64,000 nucleotides of DNA from an uncultured bacterium (GTDB lineage Bacteria; Verrucomicrobiota; Lentisphaeria; Oligosphaerales; Oligosphaeraceae): NCBI GenBank assembly GCA_902776645.1, contig CACYQT010000004.1:62001-126000 (forward strand). The letters are read 5' to 3'. The position numbers and the translations under genes were made by a program. Of this stretch, positions 16,223-37,715 are shown piece by piece. The notes under the pieces are model-generated. The model made no database searches, was not told the origin of the DNA, and saw nothing but the letters and a program-made list of their open reading frames with translations. Within the stretch, counting starts at the first letter, position 1. Each line of letters starts with the position of its first letter.

Positions 16223-17772
16223 TGGACACCTGCCTTATTGAGATGATAATTCATCATGCGCGGGGAAAGCCCCAGTTCGCGGCCGGCGGCGGTACGGTTG
16301 CCGTTGTGGCGCTTCAGGGCGTTCTCCAGAATGTGCTTTTCAACCATGGCCATCTGCTTCTCAAAGGAGAGCTGTTCATCCGGATTGAACGGATCTTCTG
16401 TGAAATCAGGCGATTGCATCGTCGGCGGAAGATTGTAGCTATGGATGCAGTCGTCCTTCGCTGTCAGCACGGCGCGTTCGATGCAGTTTTCCAGTTCGCG
16501 GACGTTGCCCGGCCATGAGTACGACTGAAGCAGATTGGCCGCCGGAGACGAAATGCTCGTGATGTTCTTGCCGTATTTCGCGTTCATTATCGAAAGGAAA
16601 TGCTGCGCCAGAGGCAGAATGTCCTCCGCCCGTTCCACAAGCGACGGCACGACGATGGGGAACACGGACAGCCGATAGTAAAGGTCTTCGCGGAAGAGCT
16701 TCCGCGCCATCAGATCCTCCAGATTGCGGCTCGTCGCCGCAATGAAACGGACGTCGCTTCTCAGCTCTTCATTGGATCCGATCCGCGTGAACGTACGCTC
16801 CTGCAGGAAGCGCAACAGCTTCACCTGCACGGAGATGGAAAGATCGCCGATTTCGTCCAGAAACAGCGTTCCGCCGTTCGCCGCCTCCGCCAGGCCGATG
16901 CGCCGTTCGCGTGCGTCCGTGAACGCGCCTTTCTCATGGCCGAACAATTCGGATTCGACCAACGTCTCCGGCAACGCCGCGCAGTTGAACACGATGAACG
17001 GCTTGTCGGCTCGTGGCGACAAGCCCTGTATCGCCCTCGCCACCAGCTCTTTGCCAGTTCCGCTGGCGCCGCGGATCAGCACCGTCGCGTCACTGGACGC
17101 GACCTGCCGGATCTGCTCGTAGACGACGCGCATCTGCTTGCAGTTGCCGACAAAATGGTCCGGATTGTTCGGCAGCATGCGACGCAGGATGCGGTTCTCC
17201 TCCTGCAGCGCCTCGCGTTCCGCGCATTCCTCACGGCAGACGACGGCCGCCTCAGCCGTGATGTTCGCGATGATCTCCAGAAACGCCACGTCCTTCGTCA
17301 ACGCGCTCGTGTCCTTCTGGATCTCCTTGTCGACGGACAGCGTCCCGATGACCTGCCCCAAGTGGATCAGCGGCACGCAGATGAATGACAACGGCTCGTT
17401 GACGCCGCGGCTTTTCGTGCGGTTCAGAAAACGGCGGTCCTTTCGGACATCGACAACGATTTCCGCCTTGCCCGTCTTCGCCACAAGCCCCGTGATGCCT
17501 TCACCGATGTGGTAGCGGCCCAACACGCGTTCCTCCGCGTTCAGACGACGCGACGTCGCCTCGATGCGCAGTTCGTCGCCTTCCAGCAACGTGAACGTGC
17601 CGCGCAGCATGCTCATCTGGTGCTCAAGAATCTCAAGCACCTCCTCAAGCAGGCGGCGGACGTTCTTCTCACGCACGAGAACGGACGTGATCTCCCGCAG
17701 CACGGATATCTCTGATAATGCACTCATGGTCATGGTGTAGTATTGGTATTTTTGGATGATGGCGTTTGTCAT
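16219..17772 (-). CDS. NifA-like sigma-54 activator (GAF-AAA+-Fis)
   Basis: A 517-residue enhancer-binding protein. Order: GAF domain (about residues 35-170), AAA+ domain (about 205-435) with Walker A GASGTGKE, Walker B GGTLFLDEIG and the arginine-rich second region of homology, then a Fis-type helix-turn-helix at the end (NRTAAGRELGLSPRMMNYHL). There is no receiver domain, so it is not NtrC. The sigma-54 contact loop reads GAFTDA instead of the usual GAFTGA. AGGTG lies six bases before the ATG at 17772; a start 30 codons upstream lacks a ribosome site. It sits inside the glutamine operon, 184 bases after carB and overlapping hisH. No nitrogen-fixation genes occur nearby. I infer it drives the three sigma-54 promoters here, sensing a metabolite (2-oxoglutarate or glutamine) or PII through GAF. 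Confidence 0.9.
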   Translation of the reverse strand: MTNAIIQKYQYYTMTMSALSEISVLREITSVLVREKNVRRLLEEVLEILEHQMSMLRGTFTLLEGDELRIEATSRRLNAEERVLGRYHIGEGITGLVAKTGKAEIVVDVRKDRRFLNRTKSRGVNEPLSFICVPLIHLGQVIGTLSVDKEIQKDTSALTKDVAFLEIIANITAEAAVVCREECAEREALQEENRILRRMLPNNPDHFVGNCKQMRVVYEQIRQVASSDATVLIRGASGTGKELVARAIQGLSPRADKPFIVFNCAALPETLVESELFGHEKGAFTDARERRIGLAEAANGGTLFLDEIGDLSISVQVKLLRFLQERTFTRIGSNEELRSDVRFIAATSRNLEDLMARKLFREDLYYRLSVFPIVVPSLVERAEDILPLAQHFLSIMNAKYGKNITSISSPAANLLQSYSWPGNVRELENCIERAVLTAKDDCIHSYNLPPTMQSPDFTEDPFNPDEQLSFEKQMAMVEKHILENALKRHNGNRTAAGRELGLSPRMMNYHLNKAGVQ

Positions 17773-17913
17773 GGCGGTCACCTGCAAATCTTTGCGGATA
17801 AACGGACGACTGCCGCGCCTGCCCGGAAGCGGATTCGCATACCAACAGCGACCTTCCGGCAACTCATATAATATAAAGCGTCAACAGTCATTTGCTTGCC
17901 AATCTCCCATATT

Positions 17914-17931
17914 AAACGTTATTTAACGTTT
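17914..17931. promoter_or_regulatory. Perfect 8-bp-arm palindrome upstream of the activator gene
   Basis: AAACGTTA-TT-TAACGTTT lies 142 bases before the activator's start codon and just beyond the carB stop. It differs from the T(G/T)ACA-N5-TGT(A/C)A sites. It could be an operator for a secondary promoter or a weak hairpin; the sequence alone does not decide. Confidence 0.4.
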
Positions 17932-17956
17932 GATTTGGCCACGATGCCGCCCCGTC

Positions 17957-20900
17957 CTATCTGGCGGAAGCTGCGTTGGCGACCATGCGGTGGTATTCCT
18001 GCAACGAGCAGATGTCGACGCGGCCCGCGTCAACCGCCGAATTGGCAAGCCCTTCCGTGGCCATCTGCAAGGCCGCCGTCGTCGTCGTGATCGGCAGACC
18101 GAACTCGATGGCAAGCGAACGCATCTTCGCGCCGTCGTCGCCGACGTCCGGAATGTTCACGATCCAGCCGATCTTCTTCTCCAGAATCAAATCGCGCAGG
18201 TTCGGCCGTCCGGCGGCGAGCCTGAAGACGGCGTGGCACGGAATGCCCGCCGCGTAAAGCATCTCGCCTGTTCCGGCCGTCGCATAGAACTCGAACTGAT
18301 GGACTTCCGCCAGATGCTTGATGAACGGCAACGCCAGCGACTTGTCGGAATCGCGGATTGAAAGGAACAGTCCGCCGGAGCGCGGGATGCGGTTGCCCGC
18401 CGCATCCTGCGACTTCAGATAGGCGTTCGCGGCATCAATGTCCAGCCCCATGACTTCGCCTGTGGATTTCATTTCAGGAGAAAGGGTTATGTCGACGCCA
18501 GGGAATTTCGCGAACGGGAAGACGGCCTCCTTGAAGGCCGAATACGGAATGCGCGGCGACTGTGTGAAACCAAGCTCCGTCAGCGTCTTGCCCGCCATGC
18601 ACAGCGCTGCGTGCTTCGCCAGCGGGACGCCCGTCGCCTTGCTCGCGAACGGCACCGTCCGCGACGCACGCGGGTTGACTTCAATCACATACAATGTGTC
18701 ATGCTGCACGGCGAACTGGATGTTCATCAGGCCGACGACATGCAGAGCCTTCGCCAGTTTGCGGGAGGCCGCATGGATTTCCGCCAGAACCTTTTCGGAC
18801 AAATCGCGCGGCGGAATGGAGCAGGCCGAATCGCCGGAATGGATGCCCGCCTGCTCGACGTGCTCCATGATCGCGCCGACGACCGTCTCGCGGCCGTCCG
18901 AAAGGCAGTCGACGTCCAGTTCCTGCGCGTCGCTGAGGAATTTGTCGATGAGAATCGGATGGCCTTCGGAGACGCGCGTCGCCTCCGCCATATAGGAGCG
19001 CAGCGCAACTTCCTGATTGACAATCGCCATCGCACGGCCGCCCAACACGAACGACGGACGGACGAGCACGGGATAACCGATCTTCGCCGCGATGCGGCAT
19101 GCGTCCTCCGTGTCCGCCGCCATGCCGCTGGCGGGCTGCCGGATGCCGACCTGCTTCGCGATTTCCTTGAAGACGCCGCGGTCGTCCGCCGCGTCGATGT
19201 CCGCAGGCGGCGTGCCGATAATTTTGACGCCGGCATGCTCCAGTTCGCTGGCCAGATTCAGCGGCGTCTGGCCGCCGAGCTGCACGATGACGCCGTCGCA
19301 TTGCTCGCGTTCGTAGATATTCAGCACGTCTTCAAACGTCAGCGGCTCGAAATAGAGGCGGTCCGCCGTGTCATAATCCGTCGAAACGGTTTCCGGATTG
19401 GAATTGACCATGATCGTTTCATAACCCGCGTCTTTCAGGGCGAAGACGGCATGGCAGCAGCAGCAGTCGAACTCGATGCCCTGCCCGATTCGGTTCGGCC
19501 CGCCACCGAGAATCATGATTTTCTTCCGCCCCGCCACGTCGCGGACGGGTTCGTCATATTCCGCATAGGTTGAATAATAGTACGGCGTCGTTGCGGCGAA
19601 TTCGCCCGCGCATGTATCGACAGTGCCGTAGGCGGGATGGATGCCGTATTCCTTCCGCAACGCGCGAATCCGCAATTCGTCCATGCCCAACGCATAGGCC
19701 AGCTGCCTGTCCGAATAGCCAAGCTCCTTCGCTTTCCGCAGGCTTTGCGGCGTGTTTTTGATCGTCGCTTCAAAAGCGGCAAGTTCCGACAGTTTGCGGA
19801 GATAGAACATGTCGAAACCAGTCAGTTCCTGAATCTTCTCCAACGGCCAGCCGCGTTTGAGGGCGGCATGGAGCACATAGACACGGTCGGCGTTCGGACG
19901 GGCCAGTTCGGCCGAGATTTTTTCATCGTCCAATTGGTCGAATTCGGCCTGTTTTTTCTCCAGCCCGAAGCCCCAATGGCCCGTCTCCAACGAGCGGATG
20001 GCCTTCTGGAAGGCCTGGTTGAAGTTCCGTCCGATCGACATCGCTTCGCCGACGGCCTTCATCTGCGTGCCAAGCGTCGAATTCGCCGCGGGAAACTTTT
20101 CGAATGTGAACCGCGGCATTTTCACGACAACATAGTCCAACACAGGCTCGAAGCAGGCGGGCGTGTTCTCCGTGATGTCGTTGCGCAGTTCATCCAGTGA
20201 ATAACCAACGGCCAATAGCGCCGCGATTTTGGCGATCGGGAAGCCCGTCGCCTTGGAAGCCAGTGCGGATGAACGGGATACGCGTGGATTCATTTCAATG
20301 ATCAGCCGTTCGCCGTTCTGCGGATTGACCGCCCACTGCACGTTGGAGCCGCCCGTCTGGATGCCGATGGCGCGCATGACGTTCAGCGAATCCTCCCGCA
20401 TGGCCTGGTATTCGCGATCCGTCAGCGTCATGGCGGGCGCCACCGTGATGGAATCGCCCGTATGGACGCCCATGGGGTCCATGTTCTCGATGGAACAGAC
20501 GATGACGGATGTGCCGCGTTTGTCGCACATGACTTCCATCTCGTACTCCTTCCATCCCAGAAGTGATTCCTCCACAAGCACTTCGTGATTGAGACTGGCC
20601 TCCAGGCCGCGTTCGACAATCGTCTTGAATTCCGCTTCGTCATGGGCGATGCCGCCGCCCGAACCGCCCAGCGTGAAGCCTGGCCGCACGATCAGCGGCC
20701 ATTTGCCGATGGCCCGCGCGATGACCATCGCCTCCTTCAGACTGTGGGCCGAATCGGAATTCGCGCTGCGGATGCCGATGCCGTCCATCGTCGCCTTGAA
20801 CAGCCTGCGGTCCTCCGCGCGGGCGATCGCATCCGCATCGGCGCCAATGAGTTCGACATGATAGCGCTTCAGCACGCCGCTCCGACACGCCTCCATGGCG

Positions 20901-21193
20901 AGATTCAGCGCCGTCTGCCCGCCAAGCGTCGGCAGCAGCGCGTCCGGCCGTTCACGGCGGATGATTTCATGGAGATATTCGGGCGTCATCGGCTCAAGAT
21001 ACGTGCGGTCCGCGAATTCCGTGTCCGTCATGATCGTGGCCGGATTGCTGTTGAGCAAGACGATTTCATAGCCTTCGCGCTTCAGCGCCTTGCAGGCCTG
21101 CACGCCTGAATAGTCGAACTCGCAGCCCTGCCCGATGACGACGGGGCCCGCGCCCAGCAGCATGATTTTATGGATGTCTGTCCGTTTCGGCAT
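17957..21193 (-). CDS. carB: Carbamoyl phosphate synthetase, large subunit
   Basis: Uses the ammonia released by CarA, bicarbonate and two ATP to make carbamoyl phosphate for pyrimidines and arginine. At 1078 residues it is full length: two homologous ATP-grasp halves ([17 protein letters not shown] near the start; [17 protein letters not shown] near 560), paired [18 protein letters not shown] / [18 protein letters not shown] motifs, and a C-terminal allosteric MGS-like domain. Only one base separates it from pyrG upstream. It is split from carA by pyrG, an unusual order. Confidence 0.97.
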
Positions 21194-21194
21194 G

Positions 21195-22793
21195 TCATTT
21201 CTCCTGATGCTTCAAAGCCGCTTCCACCAATCCGACGAACAGCGGATGCGGCGCGAACGGCCTTGATTTGAATTCCGGATGGAACTGGCAACCGACGTAG
21301 AACGGATGTTCCGGCACTTCGACCATTTCCACCAATGATTCGTCCGGGCTGGTTCCCCCTATCCGCAACCCTGCTGATTCCAACTCCTTCCGATAGTCGT
21401 TGTTGAATTCGAAACGATGGCGGTGGCGTTCCGAAATCTCCTTTTCGCCGTACAGTTCCGCCGCGCGGCTACCATCGGCAAGACGGCATGGATACGCGCC
21501 AAGCCGCATCGTGCCGCCTTTGCTGGACACGCCGCGCTGGTCGAGCATGAGATCGATGACGGGATGGGACGTCTTTTCGTCGAATTCCGTCGAATTCGCA
21601 TCCGCATAGCCTAAGACATGCCGCGCATATTCAATGACCATGCATTGCAGGCCGAGGCAGATGCCGAGGCATGGAATTCCTTTATTCCGAGCATGTTGCA
21701 ACGCGGCGACCTTCCCTTCGATGCCCCGCGAGCCGAAACCGCCGGGCACGAGAACGCCGTCGTAGCCGTCCAGCCGCGAGCAGTCGTTTTCCAGTTCCTC
21801 CGCCTCCACCATGTCGCATATCACCTTCGTGCGCAATGCGATGCCTGCATGCGCGAACGATTCGAAGATGCTCTTGTAGGCGTCCCGCAGGCCCGCATAT
21901 TTGCCGACCAACGCGATGCGGCAGGTCTTTTCCGGATGGAGGACGCGGTCCAGCAGTTCATGCCAATCGTCCAGATGGCTTTCCGTAATGGGAAGTCTCA
22001 GAAGCTCAAGGACTTTCACATCCATTCCACGGTCCGCCAATTCCTGCGGGACTTCGTAGATGGAATGCTGCACGTCGCACTCTTCGATGACCATTTCATC
22101 GGGCACGTTGCAGAACAGCGACAGCTTGCGGCGCTGTTCGTCCGCCATCGCCATTTCCGTGCGACAGACCAGCATGTCCGGAAAGATGCCGATGTTGTGC
22201 AGGATGCTGACCGACTGTTGGCTCGGCTTCGTTTTCATCTCGCCGACGGATTTGATGTACGGAACCAACGTCAGATGAATGACGATGGCGTTGCCAAGGC
22301 CCGCCTCGTTCTTGAACTGGCGGACGGCCTCCAGAAACGGCAGCGATTCGATGTCGCCCGCCGTGCCGCCGATTTCCGTCATGACGATGTCGATGCCGGG
22401 CTTTGCCGCGCTGCGGATGGCCTGTTTGATTTCATCCGTGATATGCGGAATCATCTGGACGGTCGCGCCCAGATAGGCGCCCTCCCGTTCGCGGGCGATG
22501 ACGCTGCTGTAGATTTTTCCGCTCGTGTAGTTGCTGTGGCGATCACAACGGACGCCCGCAAATCGTTCATAATGACCAAGATCGAGATCCGTTTCCGTCC
22601 CGTCGTCCGTCACGTAGACCTCCCCGTGCTGATAGGGGGACATCGTGCCCGGATCGACGTTCAGATACGGGTCGAATTTCTGCATGGCGACGGTGTAGCC
22701 GTGCGACTTGAGCAGATATGCGAGACTGGCGGCCGTGATGCCTTTTCCAAGCCCCGAAACGACGCCGCCTGTGATGAAGATGAATTTTGTCAT
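21195..22793 (-). CDS. pyrG: CTP synthetase
   Basis: Converts UTP to CTP with glutamine and ATP. The 532-residue protein has the amidoligase domain first ([14 protein letters not shown] at the start, [13 protein letters not shown] near 140) and a C-terminal class I amidotransferase domain with Cys in LGICLGLQ and His/Glu in [11 protein letters not shown]. It is packed between carA (15 bases) and carB (one base), so pyrimidine amidation steps are consecutive in the operon. Confidence 0.97.
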
Positions 22794-22808
22794 GGTTATT
22801 TGAATTTG

Positions 22809-23891
22809 TTAATGGTTGAGCATGAGTTCCTTGAACTGCCCGAAGAGATAGCGTGCGTCGAACGGGCCGGGCGCGGCTTCCGGATGGTACTGCACGGAAA
22901 ACGCGGGCAGCGTCCTGTGGCGGACGCCTTCGATCGTGCCGTCGTTCAAATTGACATGCGTGACCTCCAGATTGTCGCCCAGAGAATCGGGCATGATGGC
23001 GAAATTGTGGTTCTGCGATGTGATCTCCACCGTGTTCGTCAGCAGATTTTTGACAGGATGGTTGCAGCCATGGTGGCCGAAATGGAGCCGCCCCGTCCGT
23101 GCTCCGCAAGCGAGTCCTAAAATCTGATGGCCCAGGCAGATGCCCATGATCGGAACTTTGCCGAGAAGCTTTTTCACGCAATCGACGACACCGACGACGC
23201 CGTCCGGATCGCCCGGCCCGTTGGAGAGCAGCACGCCGTCCGGCCGCAGGTTGAAAATCGCCTCCGCTGTCGTCCCGCATGGCACGACCGTCACGCGAAA
23301 ACCGTTCGCCGCCAGCTGCCGCAAGATGTTGTATTTCACGCCGCAGTCGATGACGACGACATGCAAATCGCCTTTATCCGACCAATTGTAAGGCTTCGCG
23401 GCGGCTACTTCCGCCGCGCAGTCCAATCCGTCCAATCCGCTCCAAGCGCGCGCCTTCGCGACGGCCTCCTCCACAGGAAGATCCGTTCCGTCCGCATGCA
23501 GCCACGCCTTCTGCGTGCCGTTTTCACGGATGTGCAGCACGAGACGGCGCGTATCGACGCCGCTCAGAATCGGCCGGCCGGAATTTCTCAGCAAATCGTC
23601 CAAACTGCGACGGCTCCGCCATGACGACGGCGGATTCAGATTCTGCACGATGAGGCCGTTCAGAAAGACGCCGCGAGATTCCATGTCTTCGTCGTTGCAG
23701 CCGTAGTTGCCGACTTCCGCCGTCGAAAGCGTCACGATCTGCCCGAAATAGGACGGATCGGAGACGATTTCCTGATAGCCGCTCATGCCTGTATTGAAGA
23801 CCGCCTCGCCGGGCAGGTCGCAGGCGGCGCCGCAGGAGACGCCGTTGAAGACCGTTCCGTCGGCCAGGGCGAGATATGCTTGTGAACTCAT
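22809..23891 (-). CDS. carA: Carbamoyl phosphate synthetase, small (glutaminase) subunit
   Basis: A 360-residue class I amidotransferase. The N-terminal CarA-specific domain (MSSQAYLALADGTVF, FNTGMSGYQEIVSDPSY) is followed by the glutaminase domain with Cys in GICLGHQ and His/Glu in VQYHPEAAPGP. The ATG at 23891 has GAGGATC at eight bases; the longer frame runs back into purF and is not used. It begins 11 bases after purF. Confidence 0.97.
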   Translation of the reverse strand: MSSQAYLALADGTVFNGVSCGAACDLPGEAVFNTGMSGYQEIVSDPSYFGQIVTLSTAEVGNYGCNDEDMESRGVFLNGLIVQNLNPPSSWRSRRSLDDLLRNSGRPILSGVDTRRLVLHIRENGTQKAWLHADGTDLPVEEAVAKARAWSGLDGLDCAAEVAAAKPYNWSDKGDLHVVVIDCGVKYNILRQLAANGFRVTVVPCGTTAEAIFNLRPDGVLLSNGPGDPDGVVGVVDCVKKLLGKVPIMGICLGHQILGLACGARTGRLHFGHHGCNHPVKNLLTNTVEITSQNHNFAIMPDSLGDNLEVTHVNLNDGTIEGVRHRTLPAFSVQYHPEAAPGPFDARYLFGQFKELMLNH

Positions 23892-23902
23892 GGTAAGATC
23901 CT

Positions 23903-25639
23903 CTAATATGCGCGGATGGAAAGATGATGGGCGTAATTGACGAGAGCCTGGTTGACGACGCGGTTGCCGCCGGGCGTCGGATAGTCGCCGGTGAAATACC
24001 AGTCGCCCGTATGGTCCGGAATGCATCGCCGCAGGTCTTCGCAGGAGAGGAAGACGACTTTCAGCTCGGCGTTGAGATTGTCCGGAAGAAGCCGTTTCGT
24101 AATGGCTTCCGTCAGTTCGTCGTCGGTGAACTGCGCATAGAGTCGGGCGGCGATGTTCTGCATGTCGCGATCCGGCCTGGCGAGTTCCTCCTCCGCCAGA
24201 TGGACGTTTTCCTCAAAGAACGCATCCATCTTACGTTCATGAATCAGATCCATGCACGCCTGGAAGGCGACCAATTCGCTGAAGGACGCCATGTCGATGC
24301 CGTAGCAGTCTGGATAGCGGATCTGCGGCGCCGACGAGACGATGACGATTCGTTTCGGCTCCAGCCGGTCAAGAATCGGCAGGATGGCGCGGCGCATCGT
24401 GTTGCCGCGGACGATGGAATCGTCGATGACGACGAGATTGTCCTCATGGGACTGGATCAGCCCGTATGTCACGTCGTAGACGTGCGGAAACAGCTCTTCG
24501 CGGTGGTTCGCGTCGCTGATGAACGTGCGGAATTTCGCGTCTTTGACGGCGATCATCCCGAAACGCAGCTTGTGGCCGCCGCGGCAGTCGTCCAACGCCT
24601 CCAGCATGCCGTGGAAGCTGACCTGCGCCGTATTCGGTATGTAGGAGAAGAACGTATGGTCGTAGTCGAGGTCAATGGCGTCCAGTACTTTCGGTACGAC
24701 GGCGCGGCCGAGGGCGCGCCGTTCACGCTGGATGTCCGCGTCGTTGCCGCGTGAGAAGTAGATTCTCTCGAACACGCAATGGCGGACTGGCGCATGCGGA
24801 AGACATTGCTTCAACGTGATTTCGCCTTTCGCGGGAATGCTGAGCAAATGTCCGGCCGGCAGTTCCTTGACGTCTTCGCTGCCGAGATTGAAGGCCGTCT
24901 GGATGGTGACGCGCTCCGACGCGAGAACCGCCACTTCGTCATCGATATAATAATAGGCGGGGCGGATGCCCGCGGCATCACGGAAGGCGAAGGCGTCGCC
25001 GTTGCCGATGATGCCGCCGATGACAAAACCGCCGTCCCATTGGGCGGAGGCGTTTTTCACCGCCTGAAGCAAGTCGCCATGGTATTCCCCAAGATAATGC
25101 GAAAGCATGGTCAGCAGGATTTCGCAGTCCTGATGACCATGCGGATGATAGCCGAGCGATGTCAGATGGTTGAACACGTCCGGCGTGTTTGTCAGATTGA
25201 AGTTGCCCGCCACCAGCAATGTGCCTGCGCGGCGGGCGTTGTCGGAGACCATTGGATGGCAGGCCGCCAGCGTGCGGTTGCCGTAAGTTCCGTAGCGGAG
25301 ATGCCCGAGATAGACCTCCCCGCAGAACGGCCGCGCGAGCGAATCGGCGGCCGCCCCTCCCCCGGTTTCGATCATCCCTGAAATCCGCTCCAGCAGGTCC
25401 GCCAGCGGCATGGAGGAGCAGCTTTTCTCCAGCTGGTAGAACGGCTTGCCGGGCGGCACGTCCAGGCCGACGCAGGCGATGCCCGCGCCGTCCTGCCCGC
25501 GGTTGTGCTGCTTCTCCATCAGCAACGACAGCTTCGAAAAACCGTACGCCGTGGTGCCGTATTTCGTCGCGTAGTACTCCAATGGCTTGCGCAAACGGAG
25601 CAGCGCGACGCCGCATTCATGCTTGAGTGGATCCGACAA
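23903..25639 (-). CDS. purF: Amidophosphoribosyltransferase, long type
   Basis: First step of purine synthesis: PRPP plus glutamine give phosphoribosylamine. The class II (Ntn) nucleophile is Cys9, after a short propeptide to be removed (MSDPLKHE). The PRPP-binding signature VVIDDSIVRGNTMRR lies near residue 405. At 578 residues it is longer than the E. coli type (about 505) and resembles the Bacteroidetes-like subgroup; insertions occur around residues 70-90 and at the C-terminus. It follows glnN after 17 bases, placing the first purine enzyme directly behind glutamine synthetase. Confidence 0.95.
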   Translation of the reverse strand: MSDPLKHECGVALLRLRKPLEYYATKYGTTAYGFSKLSLLMEKQHNRGQDGAGIACVGLDVPPGKPFYQLEKSCSSMPLADLLERISGMIETGGGAAADSLARPFCGEVYLGHLRYGTYGNRTLAACHPMVSDNARRAGTLLVAGNFNLTNTPDVFNHLTSLGYHPHGHQDCEILLTMLSHYLGEYHGDLLQAVKNASAQWDGGFVIGGIIGNGDAFAFRDAAGIRPAYYYIDDEVAVLASERVTIQTAFNLGSEDVKELPAGHLLSIPAKGEITLKQCLPHAPVRHCVFERIYFSRGNDADIQRERRALGRAVVPKVLDAIDLDYDHTFFSYIPNTAQVSFHGMLEALDDCRGGHKLRFGMIAVKDAKFRTFISDANHREELFPHVYDVTYGLIQSHEDNLVVIDDSIVRGNTMRRAILPILDRLEPKRIVIVSSAPQIRYPDCYGIDMASFSELVAFQACMDLIHERKMDAFFEENVHLAEEELARPDRDMQNIAARLYAQFTDDELTEAITKRLLPDNLNAELKVVFLSCEDLRRCIPDHTGDWYFTGDYPTPGGNRVVNQALVNYAHHLSIRAY

Positions 25640-25656
25640 GGCGACTTCCTCCTGTA

Positions 25657-27750
25657 TCAGCAGATGAAAAGCATTTCACGATATTTCGGCAGCGGCCAGA
25701 CGTTGTCGTCGGTGATGGCCTCCAGGGCATCGACCTTGTGGCGGAGGAACAACATGGCCGGGATGATTCCGTGGCCTTCCGCAAGAGCCTGCTGCAGGGA
25801 GTCGATCGCGACGGTCAGCTCGTCCAGCTCATCGCCCATTTCCTTCTTGACGGAATCGATGGCGGCGCAGCCTTTCGCGTCCTGCATCGTCAGATACTCC
25901 TTGATGACGACCGGGCGGATCATGTTCTTGGCGATTTCCAGCGCGATGCGGGCCTCGATTTCAAGACGCCGCTCGTAGTCTTCGCGGAAGACTTCGTAGC
26001 GCGACTCCAGTTCGGCCTTCGTCAGCACGCCGTACTTTTCGAAGAGCTTCTGGTTCTCCTTGTCCAGCAACGGCTTGATGGCTTCGGGCGTCGACGGCAG
26101 GTTGGGCAGTCCGCGCTTCGTCGCCTCCTTGATCCATTCGGGCTTGTAGCCGTCGCCGTTGAAGATGACGCGCTGATGGGCGGAAATCTCCTTCTTGAGC
26201 AACGCCTGCAGATCCGCGTTGAAGGTCTTCGCGGAGAACTTCTCCATCTGGTCGCTGATGGCGTCCATCGCCTCCGCGACGATCGTGTTGAGAATCATGT
26301 TCGCCTCCGCGCAGGACTGCGAGGAGCCCGGGGCGCGGAATTCGAACTTGTTGCCGGTGAACGCGAAAGGCGATGTACGGTTACGGTCGGTCGCGTCGCG
26401 GTTCAGCGGCGGCAGCGCGTCGATGCCGATCCGCAGCGACGACGCCTTGCTCTTGCTGGCGGCCGTTCCGCTGACGATCTGGTTGATGACGCCTTCCAGC
26501 TGTTCGCCGACGAACATGGAGATGATGGCGGGCGGCGCTTCGTTCGCGCCCAGACGATGGTCGTTGCCCAGGCCGGAAGTCGCGGTCCGCAGGATGTCGC
26601 TGTGCGAGTCCAACGCATGGATGACGGCGGTCAGAACCGTCAGGAAGACGGCGTTTTCCGCAGGGTTGCTGCCCGGATCCAGCAGGTTGCGCTTTCCGTA
26701 GGCGATGCCCCAGTTGTTGTGCTTGCCGGAGCCGTTGACGCCCGCGAACGGCTTCTCGTGGAGGAGGCAGACCAGCCCGTAGCGGTCCGCCGTCTGCCGA
26801 AGCACTTCCATGATCAACATGTTATGGTCAACGGCCAAGTTCAGATCCTCGAAAATCGGCGCCAGTTCGAACTGCGCGGGCGCCACTTCGTTATGACGGG
26901 TCTTCGCGGGGATTCCGAGGCTCCACAGCGCCTTCTCGACGTCCGTCATGAAGGCCAGAATGCGCGACGGGATGCTTCCGAAGTAATGGTCCTCCAGCTG
27001 CTGGTGCTTCGCGGGCGGCGCGCCGTACAGCGTGCGGCCGGTCTGCAGCAGGTCAGGCCGCTGCAGGTAGAACTTCTTGTCAATCAGGAAGTACTCCTGC
27101 TCGACGCCCAGCGTGATTTTGACCGGTTCCTCCGGCTGGCCGAAGCATTTCATCAGCCGGACGACCGCCTTCTTCAAAATCTGCGTGGACCGCAGCAACG
27201 GCGTCTTCTTGTCGAGGACTTCGCCCGTGTAGGAGCAGAAAATCGTCGGGATGCAGAGCGTTCCGCCGTTGTCATGGCGTTTGATGAAGGCGGGGCTCGT
27301 CGGATCCCACGCCGTGTAGCCGCGCGCCTCGAACGTGCTGCGCAGGCCGCCCGACGGGAAGCTGGACGCGTCCGGTTCGCCGACCGCCAGCGTCTTGCCG
27401 GAGAATTCAAAAATCGCCTTGCCGTTGGAGAAGTCCAGGAAGGAATCGTGCTTCTCCGCCGTTCCGCCCGTCAACGGCTGGAACCAGTGCGTGTAGTGCG
27501 TCGCGCCGCGGGAAACGGCCCATTCCTTCATGGCCGTGGCGACTTCATCCGCGATGTCCGGATCCAGCGGCTGCATGCCGTTGATGGTCGCCATGAGCTT
27601 CTTGTAGGTGTTCTTCGGCAGATGCTCCGCCATTTTCGCGATGTCGAAGACATCCTCCGCGAAGTAGTCCAGGACCTTCGCCCCCTGCGGCTCCGCAGGG
27701 CTTGTGTGGCGATCTGAAATCTTGCATACGGCGTCAAATCTCTTTTGCAT
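25657..27750 (-). CDS. glnN: Glutamine synthetase type III
   Basis: A 697-residue GSIII, the large subtype known from Bacteroides, Butyrivibrio and some cyanobacteria, which forms dodecamers and condenses glutamate and ammonia with ATP. Landmarks include the ATP/metal segments VEQEYFLIDKKF near residue 230 and KHNNWGIAYG near 350, and NGDGYKPEW in the C-terminal part, plus the N-terminal extension absent from type I. It lacks the type I adenylylation-loop context, so control must be transcriptional or by ligand. It heads the operon of glutamine-using enzymes; a sigma-54 promoter lies 66 bases upstream of its start. No type I glnA is seen in the window. Confidence 0.96.
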   Translation of the reverse strand: MQKRFDAVCKISDRHTSPAEPQGAKVLDYFAEDVFDIAKMAEHLPKNTYKKLMATINGMQPLDPDIADEVATAMKEWAVSRGATHYTHWFQPLTGGTAEKHDSFLDFSNGKAIFEFSGKTLAVGEPDASSFPSGGLRSTFEARGYTAWDPTSPAFIKRHDNGGTLCIPTIFCSYTGEVLDKKTPLLRSTQILKKAVVRLMKCFGQPEEPVKITLGVEQEYFLIDKKFYLQRPDLLQTGRTLYGAPPAKHQQLEDHYFGSIPSRILAFMTDVEKALWSLGIPAKTRHNEVAPAQFELAPIFEDLNLAVDHNMLIMEVLRQTADRYGLVCLLHEKPFAGVNGSGKHNNWGIAYGKRNLLDPGSNPAENAVFLTVLTAVIHALDSHSDILRTATSGLGNDHRLGANEAPPAIISMFVGEQLEGVINQIVSGTAASKSKASSLRIGIDALPPLNRDATDRNRTSPFAFTGNKFEFRAPGSSQSCAEANMILNTIVAEAMDAISDQMEKFSAKTFNADLQALLKKEISAHQRVIFNGDGYKPEWIKEATKRGLPNLPSTPEAIKPLLDKENQKLFEKYGVLTKAELESRYEVFREDYERRLEIEARIALEIAKNMIRPVVIKEYLTMQDAKGCAAIDSVKKEMGDELDELTVAIDSLQQALAEGHGIIPAMLFLRHKVDALEAITDDNVWPLPKYREMLFIC

Positions 27751-27815: not shown

Positions 27816-27831
27816 AGCAAATCCCATGCCA
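27816..27831 (-). promoter_or_regulatory. Sigma-54 promoter of glnN operon
   Basis: On the minus strand: TGGCATG-GGAT-TTGCT, matching the -24/-12 consensus TGGCACG-N4-TTGCW at all but one position (T for C). The expected start of transcription is near 27806, leaving a 55-base leader. Confidence 0.88.
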
Positions 27832-27943: not shown

Positions 27944-28067
27944 CCGCAATTTTTGTCAACATATTACATTTTTTGCACGTCCATCAGCGGAATATTACAT
28001 TTTTTGTAACATCCGAATTCATGCTCCACCTGACAAAAAATGTCACCCTGCCTGACATTTTTTGTCA
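27944..28067. promoter_or_regulatory. Cluster of four to five enhancer-like palindromes
   Basis: Shared control region between glnN and gltB. Sites of the form T(G/T)ACA-N5-TGT(A/C)A: 27995-28009 (TTACA/TGTAA), 28031-28045 (TGACA/TGTCA) and 28053-28067 (TGACA/TGTCA) are perfect. 27964-27978 (TTACA/TGCAC) and 27944-27958 (CCGCA/TGTCA) are degenerate. The spacers are A or T runs. Centre spacings are 20, 31, 36 and 22 bases, mostly near whole helical turns. They lie roughly 90-260 bases from both sigma-54 promoters, the usual range for an enhancer-binding activator. The N5 architecture is like NtrC boxes, but the half-site differs. Confidence 0.75.
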
Positions 28068-28158: not shown

Positions 28159-28174
28159 TGGCACGGTTTCTGCT
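28159..28174 (+). promoter_or_regulatory. Sigma-54 promoter of gltB operon
   Basis: TGGCACG-GTTT-CTGCT, the complete -24 element and the essential GC of -12. Transcription is expected near 28185, 43 bases before gltB. Confidence 0.88.
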
Positions 28175-28227: not shown

Positions 28228-31200
28228 ATGGAACAGGATTTGAAATACCGACAGCGCAGCCTGGCGTTGCCACAGGACGAAGGGCTGTACCATTTCAGCA
28301 ACGAGCATGACGCCTGCGGCGTCGGCCTCGTCGCCAATCTGAGCGGTCAATCGACGCACGACATCGTGATCAAGGGATTGACCATCCTCCGGCGGCTTCT
28401 GCATCGCGGGGCCGCCGGAAGCGACGCCCTGTCCGGCGACGGCGCCGGGCTACTCTGCGTGATTCCGCATGATTTCTTCCAGCGGGAGCTGGGCGGCGTC
28501 CTGCCGCCCGCCGGCCAGTACGCCATCGGCATGATGTTCAACGGCGTCGGCGAAGAGGCCGCGCTGGAGGCCATCATCGAAGAGGAAGGCTGCAGGATTC
28601 TCGCATGGCGCGACGTCCCGACGGACGCCGCGCAGCTCGGCGAACAGGCCCGCCAGAGCTGTCCCGCCATCCGGCAGATTTTCGTCGTCTCGAAAAACGG
28701 CCTGTCCGGCGACGCCCTGGAGCGGAAGATCTTCGTCATCCGCCGCCGTCTGGAGCGCGAACTTCTGGACGTGTATTTCCCAAGCTTCAGCACAAAGACG
28801 GTCGTCTACAAAGGCCTGATGCTGGCCACGCAGATCGAAGCCTTCTACAAGGATCTTGCGGACGAAATGTTCGCGTCGCCGCTGGCGCTCGTCCATCAGC
28901 GCTACAGCACGAACACGTTCCCGACGTGGCGGCTGGCCCATCCGTTCCGCTATCTGGCCCACAACGGCGAAATCAACACGCTGCGCGGCAACCTGAACCA
29001 CGCCCGCACACGCGAGGCCTTCCTGAAAACGGACCTTTTCGGCGACGATCTGAAAAAGCTGCTGCCGCTGATCGACGAGACGCAGAACGATTCCGCATGC
29101 CTCGACAACATGGCCGAACTGCTTGCCCAGTCCGGCCGCTGGCTGCCGCATGTCATGATGATGCTGATCCCCCAGGCATGGGGCGTCAACTACCACATGA
29201 CAAAGGACATCTGCGGTTTCTTCGACTACCATTCCGCCCTGGTCGAGCCATGGGACGGCCCCGCCGCCGTTTCGTTCACCGACGGCGTCGGCGCGGGCGC
29301 CATGCTGGACCGCAACGGCCTCCGCCCCGCCCGTTATTCACTGACGAAAGACGGCCTGTTTGTTCTCGCCTCCGAAACCGGCGTGCTCGATCTGAAGCCT
29401 GAAGACATCGTCCGCCGCGGCCGTCTGAAGCCCGGCGAAATCCTCTGGTGCGATCTGCAGGCCCATCGGCTGGTTCTCGACGCCGAACTGAAGAACACGA
29501 TCGCGCGGCAGGCCCCCTACCGCCGCTGGGCGCAGGAGAACAAGATTCCCGTCGCGGGGCTGTTCGATTCCATCGCGGCCGCCCGCGTCACGGATGATCT
29601 CAAGGAAAAGCAGCGGCTCTTCGGCTGGACGCAGGAGGACATCGAACTGATCGTCCGCCCCATGGTCGAAACAGGAAAGGAGCCCGTCGGCTCCATGGGC
29701 AACGACGCGGCGTTGGCCGTCCTTTCACCGCGTCCGCAACTGCTGTTCAACTACTTCAAGCAGCGCTTCGCGCAGGTGACCAACCCGCCGATCGATCCGA
29801 TCCGCGAACAGCTGGTCATGAGCCTGACGACGTATATCGGCAACCAGGGCAATATCTTGTCGGAGGAAGACCACCGCGCCAGCGTCATCCGTCTGGCCCG
29901 CCCGATTCTCACCGGCGGCGATCTGGCCCGCCTGCTCGTCATGGAAGTGCCTCATATCCAAGTCCAGACGCTGTCCATTGGCTGGAAGGATGATTTGGAA
30001 TCCGCCCTTCATGAATTGGAGCAGAAGGCCGTCCAGGCCGCCCGTGACGGCAAGAGCGTGCTCGTCCTCAGCGACAAGACGCTGCCGGACGACGAACTGC
30101 CCATGCCGTCGCTGCTGGCCGTCTCCGCCGTCAACCGCGCGTTGACGGCCGCCGGCCTGCGGCCGCCCGTCGGCATCATCGTCGAATCCGGCGAAGTGCG
30201 GGAAGTCATGCACTATGCATTGTTACTCGGCTACGGCGCCACGGCCGTCCACCCCTATCTCGCATTGGAGACGGTCTCCGCCCTCGCGAAGGACGGCGAC
30301 GCCGCAAAAGCCACGGAGAATTATATTTCCGCCATCGACAAAGGATTGCTGAAATGCATGTCCAAGATGGGCATCGCCACGCTGCGCAGCTACCGTTCCG
30401 CGCAGATGTTCGAAGCGCTCGGCATCGGGGCGGACGTCATCCGCCGCTACTTCCCGGGCACGCCCTCCGCCGTCGGCGGCATCGGGCTGGCCGAAATCGC
30501 GGCGGAAGTCCGTTCACGCGTGCAGGATGCGCGGTCGGCGGCAAGCGACAAGCCGCTGCCTGTCGGCGGCAACTACCGCTGGCGTTCCGTCGGCGAGCCG
30601 CATCTGGTCACGCCGCTGTCCGTCTGCGCGTTGCATCGCGCCGTCCGCGAAAATGATCTATCGCAATATCAAGCGTTTGCGAAAGGCATCAACGAACCCG
30701 CCATTCCGATCCGCCTGCGAGACCTGCTGCAGTTCCGCAAATCGGAACAGGCCGTCCCGCTGGACGAAGTGGAATCCGTCGAAAGCATCCTGAAGCATTT
30801 CGTCGGCGGCGCCATGAGTTTCGGCGCGTTGAGCCCGGAGGCCCACGAGGCCATCGCCGTCGCCATGAACCGCATCGGCTGCATGAGCAACTCCGGTGAA
30901 GGCGGCGAAGATTCCGAACGCGACACGCCGAACGCCGACGGCGAATGCCGCGCCAGCGCCATCCGCCAGGTGGCCTCCGGACGTTTCGGCGTGACCATCA
31001 ACTATCTGGCCCGCGCCAAGGATCTGCAGATCAAGATGGCGCAGGGCGCCAAGCCGGGCGAAGGCGGCCAGCTGCCGGGCGACAAGGTCAACGAAGCCAT
31101 CGCCCGTACGCGCCATGCCACGCCAAAAATCACGTTGATTTCACCGCCGCCGCATCACGACATCTATTCCATTGAAGATCTCGCGCAGTTGATTCACGAC

Positions 31201-32652
31201 CTCCGCGCCTCCAACGCCGCCGCGCGAATCTCCGTGAAACTCGTCTCCGAAAACGGCGTCGGAACCGTCGCGGCGGGCGTCGCGAAGGCCCATGCGGACG
31301 TGGTTGTCATCTCCGGCCACGACGGCGGCACAGGCGCCGCCCCGCTGAGCTCCATCAAGCATACGGGCATGCCGTGGGAAATCGGCCTGGCCGAAACGCA
31401 TCAGACATTGGTGAAGAACAACTTGCGCGGTAAAATCAAGCTGCAGGTGGACGGCCAGTTGCGCACTGGCCGCGACATCGTCGTCGCGGCCCTGCTGGGC
31501 GCGGAGGAGTTCGGCTTCGCCACCTCCCTGCTGCTCGCTCTGGGCTGCATGATGTTGCGTCAATGCCAGGACAACACCTGCCCCGCCGGCATCACGACGC
31601 AGGATCCCGAAATCCGCAAACGCTTCCAGGGCAAGCCAGAACACATCATCGCCTACCTGCGTTTCATCGCAGAGGAAGCCCGCGGCATTCTCGCCTCGCT
31701 CGGCCTCCGTTCACTGGACGAAGCCGTCGGCCGCGCGGATCTGCTCGAAGTCAATCCCGCCATGGCCGCCGGCAAGGCCGCCCTGCTGGATTTCCAGCCC
31801 ATGCTCCATCGCGTGGAAGGCGACGTCGTCCGCTGGAAAGGCGAAAAATACACGCAGTCGACATTGGACGACGAAAAGCTCATGCCGAAGCTCGGCAAGG
31901 CGTTGACGACCTTCAAGCCAGCCTCCTTCAGCCTGCCGATCGCCAACTCGGACCGTTCTGTCGGCGCACGACTGTCCAGCAAAATCGCGCTCGCCAAAGG
32001 CGAGGCGGGCCTGCCGGACGACACGTGGCGGATATCGTTCCACGGCGTCGCAGGTCAAAGCTTCGGCGCGTTTTTAGCCAAAGGCGTCACCTTCAGCCTC
32101 GAAGGCGAGGCGAACGACTACGTCGGCAAAGGAATCTCCGGCGGCAAGATCATCATCGTGCCGGACGCGAAAGCCGTCTGCAAGGCGGATGAAAACGTCG
32201 TCGCGGGCAACGTCATCGGCTATGGCGGCACAAGCGGCGAAATCTACATCAACGGACAGGCCGGCGAACGCTTCGCCATCCGCAACAGCGGTTTCAAGGC
32301 GGTCGTCGAAGGTGTCGGCGACCATGGCTGCGAATACATGACGGGCGGCTGTGTCGTCGTGCTCGGCCGCACAGGCGTGAACTTCGCGGCCGGCATGACA
32401 GGCGGCACCGCGTATGTTCTCGATGAAGACGGCGACTTCGACCTGCGCTGCAATCTCGACACGGTCGATCTGGAATCCATTCACGCCGACACGCGCGAAG
32501 AAAATGAACTTCTGGACATGCTGAAACGCCATGAAGCCGCCACCGGCAGCCCAAAAGTACAGCATATCCTTCAGAACTGGAATGATTTCCGTGGACGCTT
32601 CGTTTGCGTCATGCCCGTTGAATACAAGAAAATCCTTCGGAGTGCACGATAA
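28228..32652 (+). CDS. gltB: Glutamate synthase (NADPH), large subunit
   Basis: Transfers the amide of glutamine to 2-oxoglutarate, yielding two glutamates. 1474 residues, normal length. The class II amidotransferase nucleophile is expected at Cys30 (NEHDACGVGLV) after a propeptide. The FMN/glutamate-synthase core is near residues 850-1200, with GGEDSERD, KPGEGGQLPG, VISGHDGGTGAAP and the Fe-S Cys cluster CMMLRQCQDNTCPAGI. The beta-helix C-terminal domain has repeated GG-turn motifs (GGKIIIVPDAKA, GGTSGEIYINGQAG). A sigma-54 promoter lies just upstream. The stop overlaps the gltD start by one base. Confidence 0.97.
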   Translation: MEQDLKYRQRSLALPQDEGLYHFSNEHDACGVGLVANLSGQSTHDIVIKGLTILRRLLHRGAAGSDALSGDGAGLLCVIPHDFFQRELGGVLPPAGQYAIGMMFNGVGEEAALEAIIEEEGCRILAWRDVPTDAAQLGEQARQSCPAIRQIFVVSKNGLSGDALERKIFVIRRRLERELLDVYFPSFSTKTVVYKGLMLATQIEAFYKDLADEMFASPLALVHQRYSTNTFPTWRLAHPFRYLAHNGEINTLRGNLNHARTREAFLKTDLFGDDLKKLLPLIDETQNDSACLDNMAELLAQSGRWLPHVMMMLIPQAWGVNYHMTKDICGFFDYHSALVEPWDGPAAVSFTDGVGAGAMLDRNGLRPARYSLTKDGLFVLASETGVLDLKPEDIVRRGRLKPGEILWCDLQAHRLVLDAELKNTIARQAPYRRWAQENKIPVAGLFDSIAAARVTDDLKEKQRLFGWTQEDIELIVRPMVETGKEPVGSMGNDAALAVLSPRPQLLFNYFKQRFAQVTNPPIDPIREQLVMSLTTYIGNQGNILSEEDHRASVIRLARPILTGGDLARLLVMEVPHIQVQTLSIGWKDDLESALHELEQKAVQAARDGKSVLVLSDKTLPDDELPMPSLLAVSAVNRALTAAGLRPPVGIIVESGEVREVMHYALLLGYGATAVHPYLALETVSALAKDGDAAKATENYISAIDKGLLKCMSKMGIATLRSYRSAQMFEALGIGADVIRRYFPGTPSAVGGIGLAEIAAEVRSRVQDARSAASDKPLPVGGNYRWRSVGEPHLVTPLSVCALHRAVRENDLSQYQAFAKGINEPAIPIRLRDLLQFRKSEQAVPLDEVESVESILKHFVGGAMSFGALSPEAHEAIAVAMNRIGCMSNSGEGGEDSERDTPNADGECRASAIRQVASGRFGVTINYLARAKDLQIKMAQGAKPGEGGQLPGDKVNEAIARTRHATPKITLISPPPHHDIYSIEDLAQLIHDLRASNAAARISVKLVSENGVGTVAAGVAKAHADVVVISGHDGGTGAAPLSSIKHTGMPWEIGLAETHQTLVKNNLRGKIKLQVDGQLRTGRDIVVAALLGAEEFGFATSLLLALGCMMLRQCQDNTCPAGITTQDPEIRKRFQGKPEHIIAYLRFIAEEARGILASLGLRSLDEAVGRADLLEVNPAMAAGKAALLDFQPMLHRVEGDVVRWKGEKYTQSTLDDEKLMPKLGKALTTFKPASFSLPIANSDRSVGARLSSKIALAKGEAGLPDDTWRISFHGVAGQSFGAFLAKGVTFSLEGEANDYVGKGISGGKIIIVPDAKAVCKADENVVAGNVIGYGGTSGEIYINGQAGERFAIRNSGFKAVVEGVGDHGCEYMTGGCVVVLGRTGVNFAAGMTGGTAYVLDEDGDFDLRCNLDTVDLESIHADTREENELLDMLKRHEAATGSPKVQHILQNWNDFRGRFVCVMPVEYKKILRSAR

Positions 32653-35828: not shown

Positions 35829-35863
35829 TTACAATATTTGTAATCGACTTTCATAAGATGTAA
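35829..35863. promoter_or_regulatory. Two enhancer-like palindromes upstream of glnK
   Basis: 35829-35843 is TTACA-ATATT-TGTAA, perfect. 35849-35863 is TTTCA-TAAGA-TGTAA, one mismatch. Centres are 20 bases apart (two helical turns). They are of the same type as the sites in the glnN-gltB region and lie 46 to 80 bases upstream of the sigma-54 promoter. A further TGTCA half-site lies at 35807-35811. Confidence 0.7.
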
Positions 35864-35908: not shown

Positions 35909-35924
35909 TGGCATGGTAATTGCT
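35909..35924 (+). promoter_or_regulatory. Sigma-54 promoter of glnK-amtB
   Basis: TGGCATG-GTAA-TTGCT, near-perfect -24/-12 elements, identical in its conserved parts to the glnN promoter. Transcription is expected near 35934, leaving a 75-base leader. Confidence 0.9.
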
Positions 35925-36008: not shown

Positions 36009-36350
36009 ATGAAACTCATCATCGCGTACATTCAGCCGGATCGGCTGAATCCAGTCAAGCAGGCGTTGTACGCCCGCAAGGTCTTCAAGATATCCGTCAC
36101 CAATGCGTTGGGCTGCGGCCAGCAGCAAGGCTACATGAACGTATGGCGTGGCACCCTGCGGGAAGTCAACCTGCTGAAGAAGATACGGCTTGCGATTGCG
36201 GTCAACGACGATTTTGTCGAAACGACCATCGAAGGCATCATCGAAGGGGCCCGGACGGGTCACATCGGCGACGGCAAGATATTCGTCCTGCCGATGGAGG
36301 ATTGCATCCGCATCAGAACCGGTGAACGTGGCGGCGAAGCGATTGGATAG
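36009..36350 (+). CDS. glnK: PII nitrogen signalling protein, lacks Tyr51
   Basis: A 113-residue PII protein that aligns without gaps to E. coli GlnB/GlnK. It would bind ATP/ADP and 2-oxoglutarate and gate the adjacent ammonium channel. Ligand residues Gln39, Lys58, Lys90 and Arg101/Arg103 are kept (GDGKIFVLPMEDCIRIRTGE). The T-loop is unusual (GCGQQQGYMNVWRGTLREVNLL): Tyr51, the uridylylation site, is Arg51, and Tyr46 is Trp. Control by uridylylation at the classical site is therefore impossible; Thr49 occupies the place of cyanobacterial Ser49. The ATG follows AAGGAG. Six bases separate it from amtB. Confidence 0.95.
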   Translation: MKLIIAYIQPDRLNPVKQALYARKVFKISVTNALGCGQQQGYMNVWRGTLREVNLLKKIRLAIAVNDDFVETTIEGIIEGARTGHIGDGKIFVLPMEDCIRIRTGERGGEAIG

Positions 36351-36356
36351 GAGATT

Positions 36357-37715
36357 ATGAAGATGAAAATACCTATGAGAATATTGATCTTGATGATGTT
36401 CGGTGCGGTCGGCATGCTGGCCGCGGAGGAGAAAGGAGCGTCCGCGGCGCAGGTCCAGATCAACCTGAACATCGTGTGGACGATTATCGGCGGCATTTTG
36501 GTTTTCGCCATGCAGGCGGGCTTCGCAATGGTTGAAACAGGCATGACCCGCGCAAAAAACGCGGCCAACATCATGATGAAGAACATGTTGGACTTCGGTC
36601 TGGGATCCATCGCGTTCTTTCTGATCGGCGCCGCATTCATGTTCGGCAAGACCGCCTGCGGCGTCATCGGTACGGACGGATGGCTGATGAGTTCGCTCCA
36701 TGGAGCGGCGGACTGGGATTGGACGTTCATGTTCTTCCAGACGATGTTCGCCGCGACATCGGCGACCATCGTCTCGGGCGCAGTGGCGGAACGGACCAAA
36801 TTTTCGGCATATTTGGTCTATTCCATTATCGTCAGCGCATTCATCTATCCAATTTCGGGGAAATGGGCGTGGGGCAGCCTCTTCAATGCCGAAGCGGCCG
36901 GATGGCTTGGCAACCTTGGGTTCACGGATTTCGCGGGCTCGAACGTCGTCCATAGCGTCGGCGGCTGGCTCGCGCTGGCGGGGGCGATCATGCTCGGGCC
37001 ACGCATCGGCAAATACAATCCCGACGGCAAGCCCAATGCGATTCCAGGCCACAATCTGGTTATCGCCACGCTCGGCGTGCTGATCCTGTGGATCGGCTGG
37101 TTCGGATTCAACCCGGGCTCCACGACACAGGGCGTCGGCGATATCGGACGGATCGCGCTGGTCACCAATTTCGGCGCCGTCTCAGGCATGATCACCGCGA
37201 TGGTGATGGCATGGATTCTCATGAAGAAGCCTGATTTGTCCATGACGCTCAACGGCGCGCTTGCCGGGCTTGTGGCGATTACCGCCCCGTGCAACACCGT
37301 CACGCCCGCCGCGGCGATTCTAATCGGTGTCATTGCGGGTATTCTTGTGACGTTCAGCGTGATGACGTTCGACCGCCTCGGCATCGACGATCCCGTCGGC
37401 GCCGTCAGCGTCCATGCGATAAACGGCCTGTGGGGCACGATTTCCTGTGGTTTCTTCAATGCGGAGGCCGTTTTGGAAGTCGGCGACGCAAACACGGGGC
37501 TGTTCTACGGAGGCGGATTCCATCAGCTTGGCGTCCAGCTGCTTGGTGCGGGATGCACGTTCATTTGGGCGTTCGGCCTCGGCTTGCTGATGTTTTACAT
37601 CATCAAAAAGACCATGGGGCTCCGTGTCACAGCCGAAGAGGAATTCAAAGGTCTGGACATCGTGGAGCATGGCAACGACGCCTACGCCGGATTCCAGATT
37701 TTCCCGAATGAATAA
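36357..37715 (+). CDS. amtB: Ammonium transporter
   Basis: Inner-membrane ammonium channel, 452 residues, with a cleavable-looking N-terminal signal (MRILILMMFGAVGMLAAEE) and eleven membrane segments. Family motifs are VFAMQAGFAMVETGMTRAKN, DFAGSNVVHSVGGW, WIGWFGFNPGS and GAVSVHAINGLWGT; the pore histidines (VHSVGG, VHAINGLWG) are present. AGGAG precedes the ATG. The glnK-amtB pairing is the classical one and supports regulation of the channel by PII trimer docking. Confidence 0.97.
   Translation: MKMKIPMRILILMMFGAVGMLAAEEKGASAAQVQINLNIVWTIIGGILVFAMQAGFAMVETGMTRAKNAANIMMKNMLDFGLGSIAFFLIGAAFMFGKTACGVIGTDGWLMSSLHGAADWDWTFMFFQTMFAATSATIVSGAVAERTKFSAYLVYSIIVSAFIYPISGKWAWGSLFNAEAAGWLGNLGFTDFAGSNVVHSVGGWLALAGAIMLGPRIGKYNPDGKPNAIPGHNLVIATLGVLILWIGWFGFNPGSTTQGVGDIGRIALVTNFGAVSGMITAMVMAWILMKKPDLSMTLNGALAGLVAITAPCNTVTPAAAILIGVIAGILVTFSVMTFDRLGIDDPVGAVSVHAINGLWGTISCGFFNAEAVLEVGDANTGLFYGGGFHQLGVQLLGAGCTFIWAFGLGLLMFYIIKKTMGLRVTAEEEFKGLDIVEHGNDAYAGFQIFPNE

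Follow-up and report, generated by a model that had tools for sequence, protein, structure and literature searches.

The genome searched was a 5.01-Mb MAG of the Victivallales (Lentisphaeria), and the genomes compared with it were mostly MAGs, some of them incomplete. In the window, by which we mean the whole 64,000-nucleotide stretch that was analysed, glnN (25657-27750, reverse strand), encoding a type III glutamine synthetase with GSIII_N and Gln-synt_C domains, is divergent from gltB (28228-32652, forward strand), encoding the glutamate synthase large subunit. The space between these genes is a control region that contains palindromic boxes, and a second box site lies 5' of glnK-amtB (glnK, encoding PII, 36009-36350, forward strand, then amtB, 36357-37715). 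Downstream of the boxes are clear sigma-54 (-24/-12) promoters for glnN (27816-27831, reverse strand, TGGCATGGGATTTGCT), gltB (28159-28174, forward strand, TGGCACGGTTTCTGCT) and glnK-amtB (35909-35924, forward strand, TGGCATGGTAATTGCT). AAA+ activators with a helix-turn-helix (HTH) are encoded in the genome, and four are full sigma-54 activators: C26, whose gene adjoins that of a histidine kinase; C20; C14, divergent from a VIT-VWA gene; and a GAF-AAA-Fis protein encoded in the window (16219-17862, reverse strand, likely start 17772; GAF-Sigma54_activat-HTH_8), hereafter the GAF EBP. The last of these is 96% shared with its closest named records, the rumen Victivallales MAGs RGIG7578 and RGIG7794. 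Its gene is part of a one-stranded run with short gaps, glnN-purF-carA-pyrG-carB-[GAF EBP]-hisH-hisF (14889-27750, reverse strand), which lies downstream of the sigma-54 glnN promoter and consists largely of glutamine-using enzymes; this position inside a glnN-started run suggests indirect autoregulation.

An earlier, sequence-only reading of this DNA had described the boxes as a single enhancer palindrome, T(G/T)ACA-N5-TGT(A/C)A. Five exact copies of this pattern (TKACA-N5-TGTMA) occur in the window, where shuffled sequences predict 0.06, and four of them are at regulatory positions (all on the forward strand): 27995-28009 (TTACATTTTTTGTAA), 28031-28045 (TGACAAAAAATGTCA) and 28053-28067 (TGACATTTTTTGTCA) between glnN and gltB, and 35829-35843 (TTACAATATTTGTAA) before glnK. 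The fifth, at 42707, coincides with the start of a coding ORF and was treated as a chance match. Genome-wide, 20 exact matches were found compared to 8 for the reversed-pattern control; for seven of the 20, one of 24 sigma-54-like sites follows within 260 bp (0.025 expected, P ~4e-16), and most of those away from such sites are inside ORFs. Raw genome-wide counts of TTACA-N4/N5-TGTAA barely exceed the reversed control and are uninformative without promoter context. The palindromes are thus real at the places described, being far above chance and upstream of sigma-54 promoters. The genes glmS, pabA, purL and nadE, which had been suggested for checking as further targets, were not recognisable after any of the 24 listed sigma-54-like sites.

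The exact copies fall into two classes that the single palindrome had lumped together, one with T and one with G at position 2. T-class boxes (TTACA-N5-TGTAA) form pairs 31 bp apart in the control region (27964-27978, forward strand, TTACATTTTTTGCAC, with 27995-28009) and 20 bp apart before glnK (35829-35843 with the near copy at 35849-35863, forward strand, TTTCATAAGATGTAA), and their centres lie mostly ~38 to 179 bp upstream of the -24 element, placing the -24/-12 sequences (GG-N10-GC) within looping distance. At 31 bp the top-scoring T pair in the window is 27964/27995 (33.2 bits; next 6.4), at 20 bp it is 35829/35849 (37.0 bits), and the G-class boxes at 28031 and 28053 form a 22-bp pair (46.9 bits; next in the window 14.3). 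The perfect and near-perfect copies reported before glnK stand, and a perfect TTACA-N5-TGTAA occupies the position of the near copy in G002 and G004. Between the divergent promoters, where three perfect and two degenerate copies had been counted, the three perfect ones hold and the degenerate 27964 copy is a genuine partner because its distance from 27995 is exactly 31 bp, which is conserved across phyla and also found for this pair in G002 and G004; the other, at 27944-27958, lacks support, with -3.2 bits under the T model and 3.3 under the G model. Start-to-start spacings are 20, 31, 36 and 22 bp in the cluster and 20 bp at glnK; of the 20, 22 and 20 bp emphasised before, the 22 of the G pair and the 20 at glnK survive, while the 20 of the cluster used the unsupported copy; conserved spacings are the 31 of the T pair and the 22 of the G pair.

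The T-class box precedes glnN, gltB, glnK, gdhA and the activator gene across Lentisphaeria, rumen Kiritimatiellae and some Fibrobacter; named loci with the N5 box include Kiritimatiellae and Fibrobacter MAGs and Lentisphaeria UBA1732, and their spacers are often non-AT. It was found before glnN, glnK and gdhA in G000, G002 or G004 (gdhA in G002 and G004). Six further genomes (G005, G009, G012, G014, G019 and G021) have it before glnN. In G005, G009 and G019 it also precedes the gene of the GAF activator, from which a small GltB-C-terminal-like gene, itself furnished with a sigma-54 site, diverges. The dominant pair distance, 31 bp, is kept across phyla, and strict N5 pairs at this distance were present in 28 genomes out of 198 in the class (reversed control, one). 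Divergent glnN and gltB-side promoters flank the 31-bp pair in G014, L113/G107 and G091, and a 29-bp pair in G166, in agreement with the earlier proposal that one enhancer serves both directions. Two members of the same genus, G001 and G003, keep only the second GSIII, and no GAF EBP ortholog, VIT-EBP, glnK or window-type glnN was detected in them at the cut-offs used; in these genomes the nitrogen module is lost or was never gained. GAF EBPs 61-74% identical to that of the window, with the same N5 boxes, were seen in Fibrobacter horse-gut MAGs (L110-L112, L122) and in Kiritimatiellae and others (L096-L109), and it is possible that regulator and box spread horizontally among herbivore-gut bacteria.

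Tandem pairs of the second class, TGACA/GTACA-AAAAA-TGTCA, whose starts are 22 bp apart, stand before about nine other sigma-54 promoters of the genome (C2, C4:192413, C8, C14, two in C27, C60, C65 and C82), most at -80/-58 from the -24 element, and the genes that follow encode mostly signal-peptide or lipobox proteins, as judged by eye. The TGACA...TGTCA copies of the control region thus belong to a second, larger, non-nitrogen regulon, and occurrence of the motif before unrelated genes, which the sequence-only reading had named as counting against it, was found for half of the motif, the TGACA class. On C14 the VIT-VWA gene and its divergent EBP (hereafter VIT-EBP) are separated by a 22-bp pair, and relatives keep related pairs at this locus, with a distance of 21 or 22 bp in the ones gauged by eye. 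The gltB-side G pair is present in G000, G002 and G004 and was not found in the glnN-gltB intergenic regions of G014, G051, G056, G059, L113 and others, and therefore appears as a genus-level addition at gltB. Where its two boxes face each other (28041-28057), TGTCA-N7-TGACA fits the GlnR/TnrA operator, TGTNA-N7-TNACA, exactly; we regard such an operator as extremely improbable, however, as the site is formed by the facing halves of two G boxes at 22-bp spacing, other 22-bp pairs likewise place TGTCA seven bases ahead of a half-site ending in ACA, and the one match compares to 0.36 expected by chance.

The two classes are doubly dissociated from the two activators. G006 has the VIT-EBP and its boxes but lacks a GAF ortholog, while G012, G021, G013 and G022 have the GAF EBP and N5 or N4 nitrogen boxes (see below) but lack the VIT-EBP; we therefore take the GAF EBP as the activator of the T class and the VIT-EBP as the likely reader of the 22-bp G pairs, as judged from these co-occurrences. 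Were the GAF EBP instead the sole protein to bind all T(G/T)ACA-N5-TGT(A/C)A copies, position-2 G being mere degeneracy, one would expect the ACA-N5-TGT core that both classes share within the same intergenic region, and hybrid boxes such as TTACATTTTTTGTCA at glnK of G051. Position 2 of nitrogen boxes elsewhere is indeed occasionally G (for example, TGACCATTTTTGTCA in G054). This alternative nevertheless seems unlikely to us, since the G class has an A6 core and an invariant 22-bp spacing, is found before promoters of VIT-VWA and lipoprotein genes, and accompanies the VIT-EBP in G006, a genome without a GAF ortholog, and since T boxes at 31- or 20-bp spacing are found in genomes without the VIT-EBP. 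G006 also has a sigma-54 glnK promoter with T-like boxes (one mismatch each) despite the missing GAF ortholog.

A further line of evidence connects the T class to the GAF EBP. At the equivalent promoters of other lineages the box is one bp shorter, TTACA-N4-TGTAA; this form precedes gdhA in G010, G022 and G028 and purF in G010. Among exact sites at nitrogen promoters, N5 genomes have 29 with N5 and none at the other spacers from 0 to 12, and N4 genomes have seven with N4 and none other, a spectrum that demonstrates purity within groups, as the genomes were grouped after inspection. Residue 537 of the activator, in the HTH recognition helix (SPRM-M-NYHL; codon computed from the ORF at 16252-16254, reverse strand), is Met in 38 of 38 N5 users and Ile or Leu in 20 of 20 N4 users, and is the sole alignment column of the protein that separates the two; two records seen twice (L113 = G107, L114 = G187) had been removed from these totals, and G015 and G027 were uninformative. 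Predictions made beforehand agreed: all 15 new genomes found by the N5 pair alone carry Met, G166 (Met) has N5, and G100, G103b, G105b, G101b, G010 and G024 (Ile) have N4. Five Met loci (L098, L101, L103, L107 and L110) showed no box near a sigma-54 site. On an activator tree built without the HTH the residue switches state twice, and G101 carries both paralogs and both box types.

Because spacer length covaries with its residue 537, the GAF EBP is assigned as the T-class activator, and that it reads the TTACA box is strongly supported by this comparison of genomes; the earlier proposal that it is the activator of the cluster is upheld for this class and not for TGACA. We infer that residue 537 is causal for the spacing, in no stronger terms because the sequences share ancestry and the rows of known box state force no more than two independent switches. 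A fuller version, in which Met versus Ile/Leu at 537 would set N5 versus N4, the two having switched together at least twice, and in which the G101 paralogs would run insulated regulons, strikes us as evenly poised between right and wrong.

In this genus the VIT-EBP might conceivably read every glnN-gltB box, leaving the GAF EBP to act at glnK only, as the A6 core of the second class is present also in the boxes at 27964 and 27995, which score 21.1 and 23.5 bits on the G (VIT-regulon) model, so that by sequence both EBPs could bind them. We consider this improbable, more so than a single GAF EBP reading both classes, as the 31-bp pair between glnN and gltB is conserved, with arbitrary spacers, in lineages without a VIT-EBP, and follows residue 537 of the GAF EBP.

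From the computed boxes and promoters, their conservation, the two classes, the double dissociation and the covariation, we propose, with a probability of roughly 0.8, that the control region is a composite sigma-54 enhancer in which the T pair is read by the GAF EBP and the G pair by the C14/VIT-EBP as a second input to gltB; binding, looping, the nitrogen-limitation signal and the direction of regulation are predictions of this model. Dimers of the NifA/AnfA-like GAF-AAA-Fis protein would bind the TTACA-N5-TGTAA pair, oligomerise into an active ring upon what is presumably nitrogen limitation, and loop to sigma-54 holoenzyme at the -24/-12 promoters of glnN, gltB and glnK to open them, the single pair 31 bp (~three helical turns) apart serving both divergent promoters. 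The box would represent an AnfA/VnfA-type dyad (TAC-N6-GTA) extended by one bp, matched by Met in place of Ile/Leu at residue 537. The 22-bp TGACA-A5-TGTCA pair, added in this genus, would be read by the VIT-EBP, which otherwise would control exported proteins and lipoproteins, and would give gltB a second, envelope-related input; gltB may thus integrate two activators.

Likeness to known systems is closest for AnfA and VnfA. AnfA of Rhodobacter capsulatus, a GAF-AAA-Fis protein, binds TAC-N6-GTA at two sites (PMC7294313), and VnfA of Azotobacter binds GT(T/A)C-N6-GTAC (PMC9542535); here, too, a dyad, usually at two sites per sigma-54 promoter, would be read by a GAF-AAA-Fis EBP. The N4 box of relatives with Ile or Leu at 537 contains TAC-N6-GTA exactly, whereas the box of the window is TAC-N7-GTA, one bp longer, and does not fit TAC-N6-GTA; on the strength of site and domain architecture, the features on which the likeness is drawn, the nitrogen box is a putative AnfA/VnfA-type variant lengthened by one bp. 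AnfA and VnfA serve alternative nitrogenases, whereas this box serves ammonium assimilation. NifA has the same domain order as the GAF EBP and is its best NCBIfam model, full-length NifA (9qq6) is its best PDB match and, with the NifA-like Nlh1/Nlh2, is among the solved relatives of its GAF domain. The GAF EBP (432.2 bits) nevertheless falls below the NifA cut-off (528.85), no nif target was seen, and TGT-N10-ACA is absent from both control regions; the sequence-only reading had likewise noted that the NifA box differs. A homolog on a Desulfovibrio plasmid was dropped, as it is not beside nif genes.

In function the system resembles NtrC/NtrB, which likewise activates glutamine synthetase, glnK-amtB and other nitrogen genes through sigma-54. 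The boxes could accordingly be taken for NtrC sites with one of the response-regulator EBPs, C26 or C20, as NtrC, and the C26 gene does adjoin a histidine kinase gene, its product scoring 448.8 bits on the NtrC model. That score is below the NtrC cut-off (558.6), which, like that for NifA, no protein reaches, AtoC scores higher, the half-site differs, neither control region has a dyad of the NtrC type (TGCACC-N5-GGTGCA), and the covarying protein is the GAF EBP, so that we give this alternative very little credence; likening the N5 spacer to that of NtrC, as had been done, was misleading, AnfA's TAC-N6-GTA being the closest known site. GlnK of this genus differs as well, Trp replacing the uridylylated Tyr of the T-loop (NVWRG; checked in g1, g10, g11 and g3; Tyr in f14, g7, g8 and others), which argues against a classical uridylylation cascade.

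We found no description of a sigma-54 nitrogen regulon of Lentisphaeria in the open-access literature searched. With the activator, box, pair geometry and targets (glnN, gltB, glnK-amtB, gdhA and the activator's own gene) assigned here, this regulon can also be followed into Kiritimatiellae and Fibrobacter from herbivore guts. The one-base/one-residue covariation provides a rule, open to direct test, on the way in which half-site spacing is set by a Fis-type HTH dimer; for this question, nature seldom provides switches repeated twice or two paralogs within the same cell. The second class points to the stacking of two sigma-54 activators with similar sites on a single promoter. That sigma-54 controls exported and envelope genes is known (PMC3162934), and the G-class regulon likewise comprises mostly exported proteins or lipoproteins; for the VIT-associated EBP, its box pair and its VIT-VWA partner, no description was found in the open-access literature searched.

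The EBP family divergent from VIT-VWA genes is found across Lentisphaeria (L016 4489-8279; L236-L264), Pfam recognising the AAA region only, and 48-52% paralogs are divergent from an acyl-CoA-synthetase-like gene with TACAT-AAAATGTA boxes. Repeated small lipoprotein/exported paralogs (L265, L270, L278, L279, L286, L288, L147 and L160) have near-identical 22-bp box pairs and sigma-54 promoters; the window ORFs at 55649-56680 and 56727-57761 resemble the L147/L160 proteins and have no 22-bp boxes nearby. At C30:31301, TGACATTTTTTGTAA is conserved in G002 and G004 between two exported-protein genes, with no good sigma-54 site. Directly 5' of a MerR-like regulator gene without a sigma-54 promoter, TTACAGTAACTGTAA (L022 3989-4003; C16:5488) is probably an unrelated operator, and similar sites (TTACAGTTACTGTAA) recur in G005 and G010. 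Finally, dnaK-like and small-heat-shock-protein-like genes with good sigma-54 promoters (G000:C22:2872 and C54:5660; L276, L281) have neither box class and carry TGGCAC/GTGCCA-type repeats upstream.
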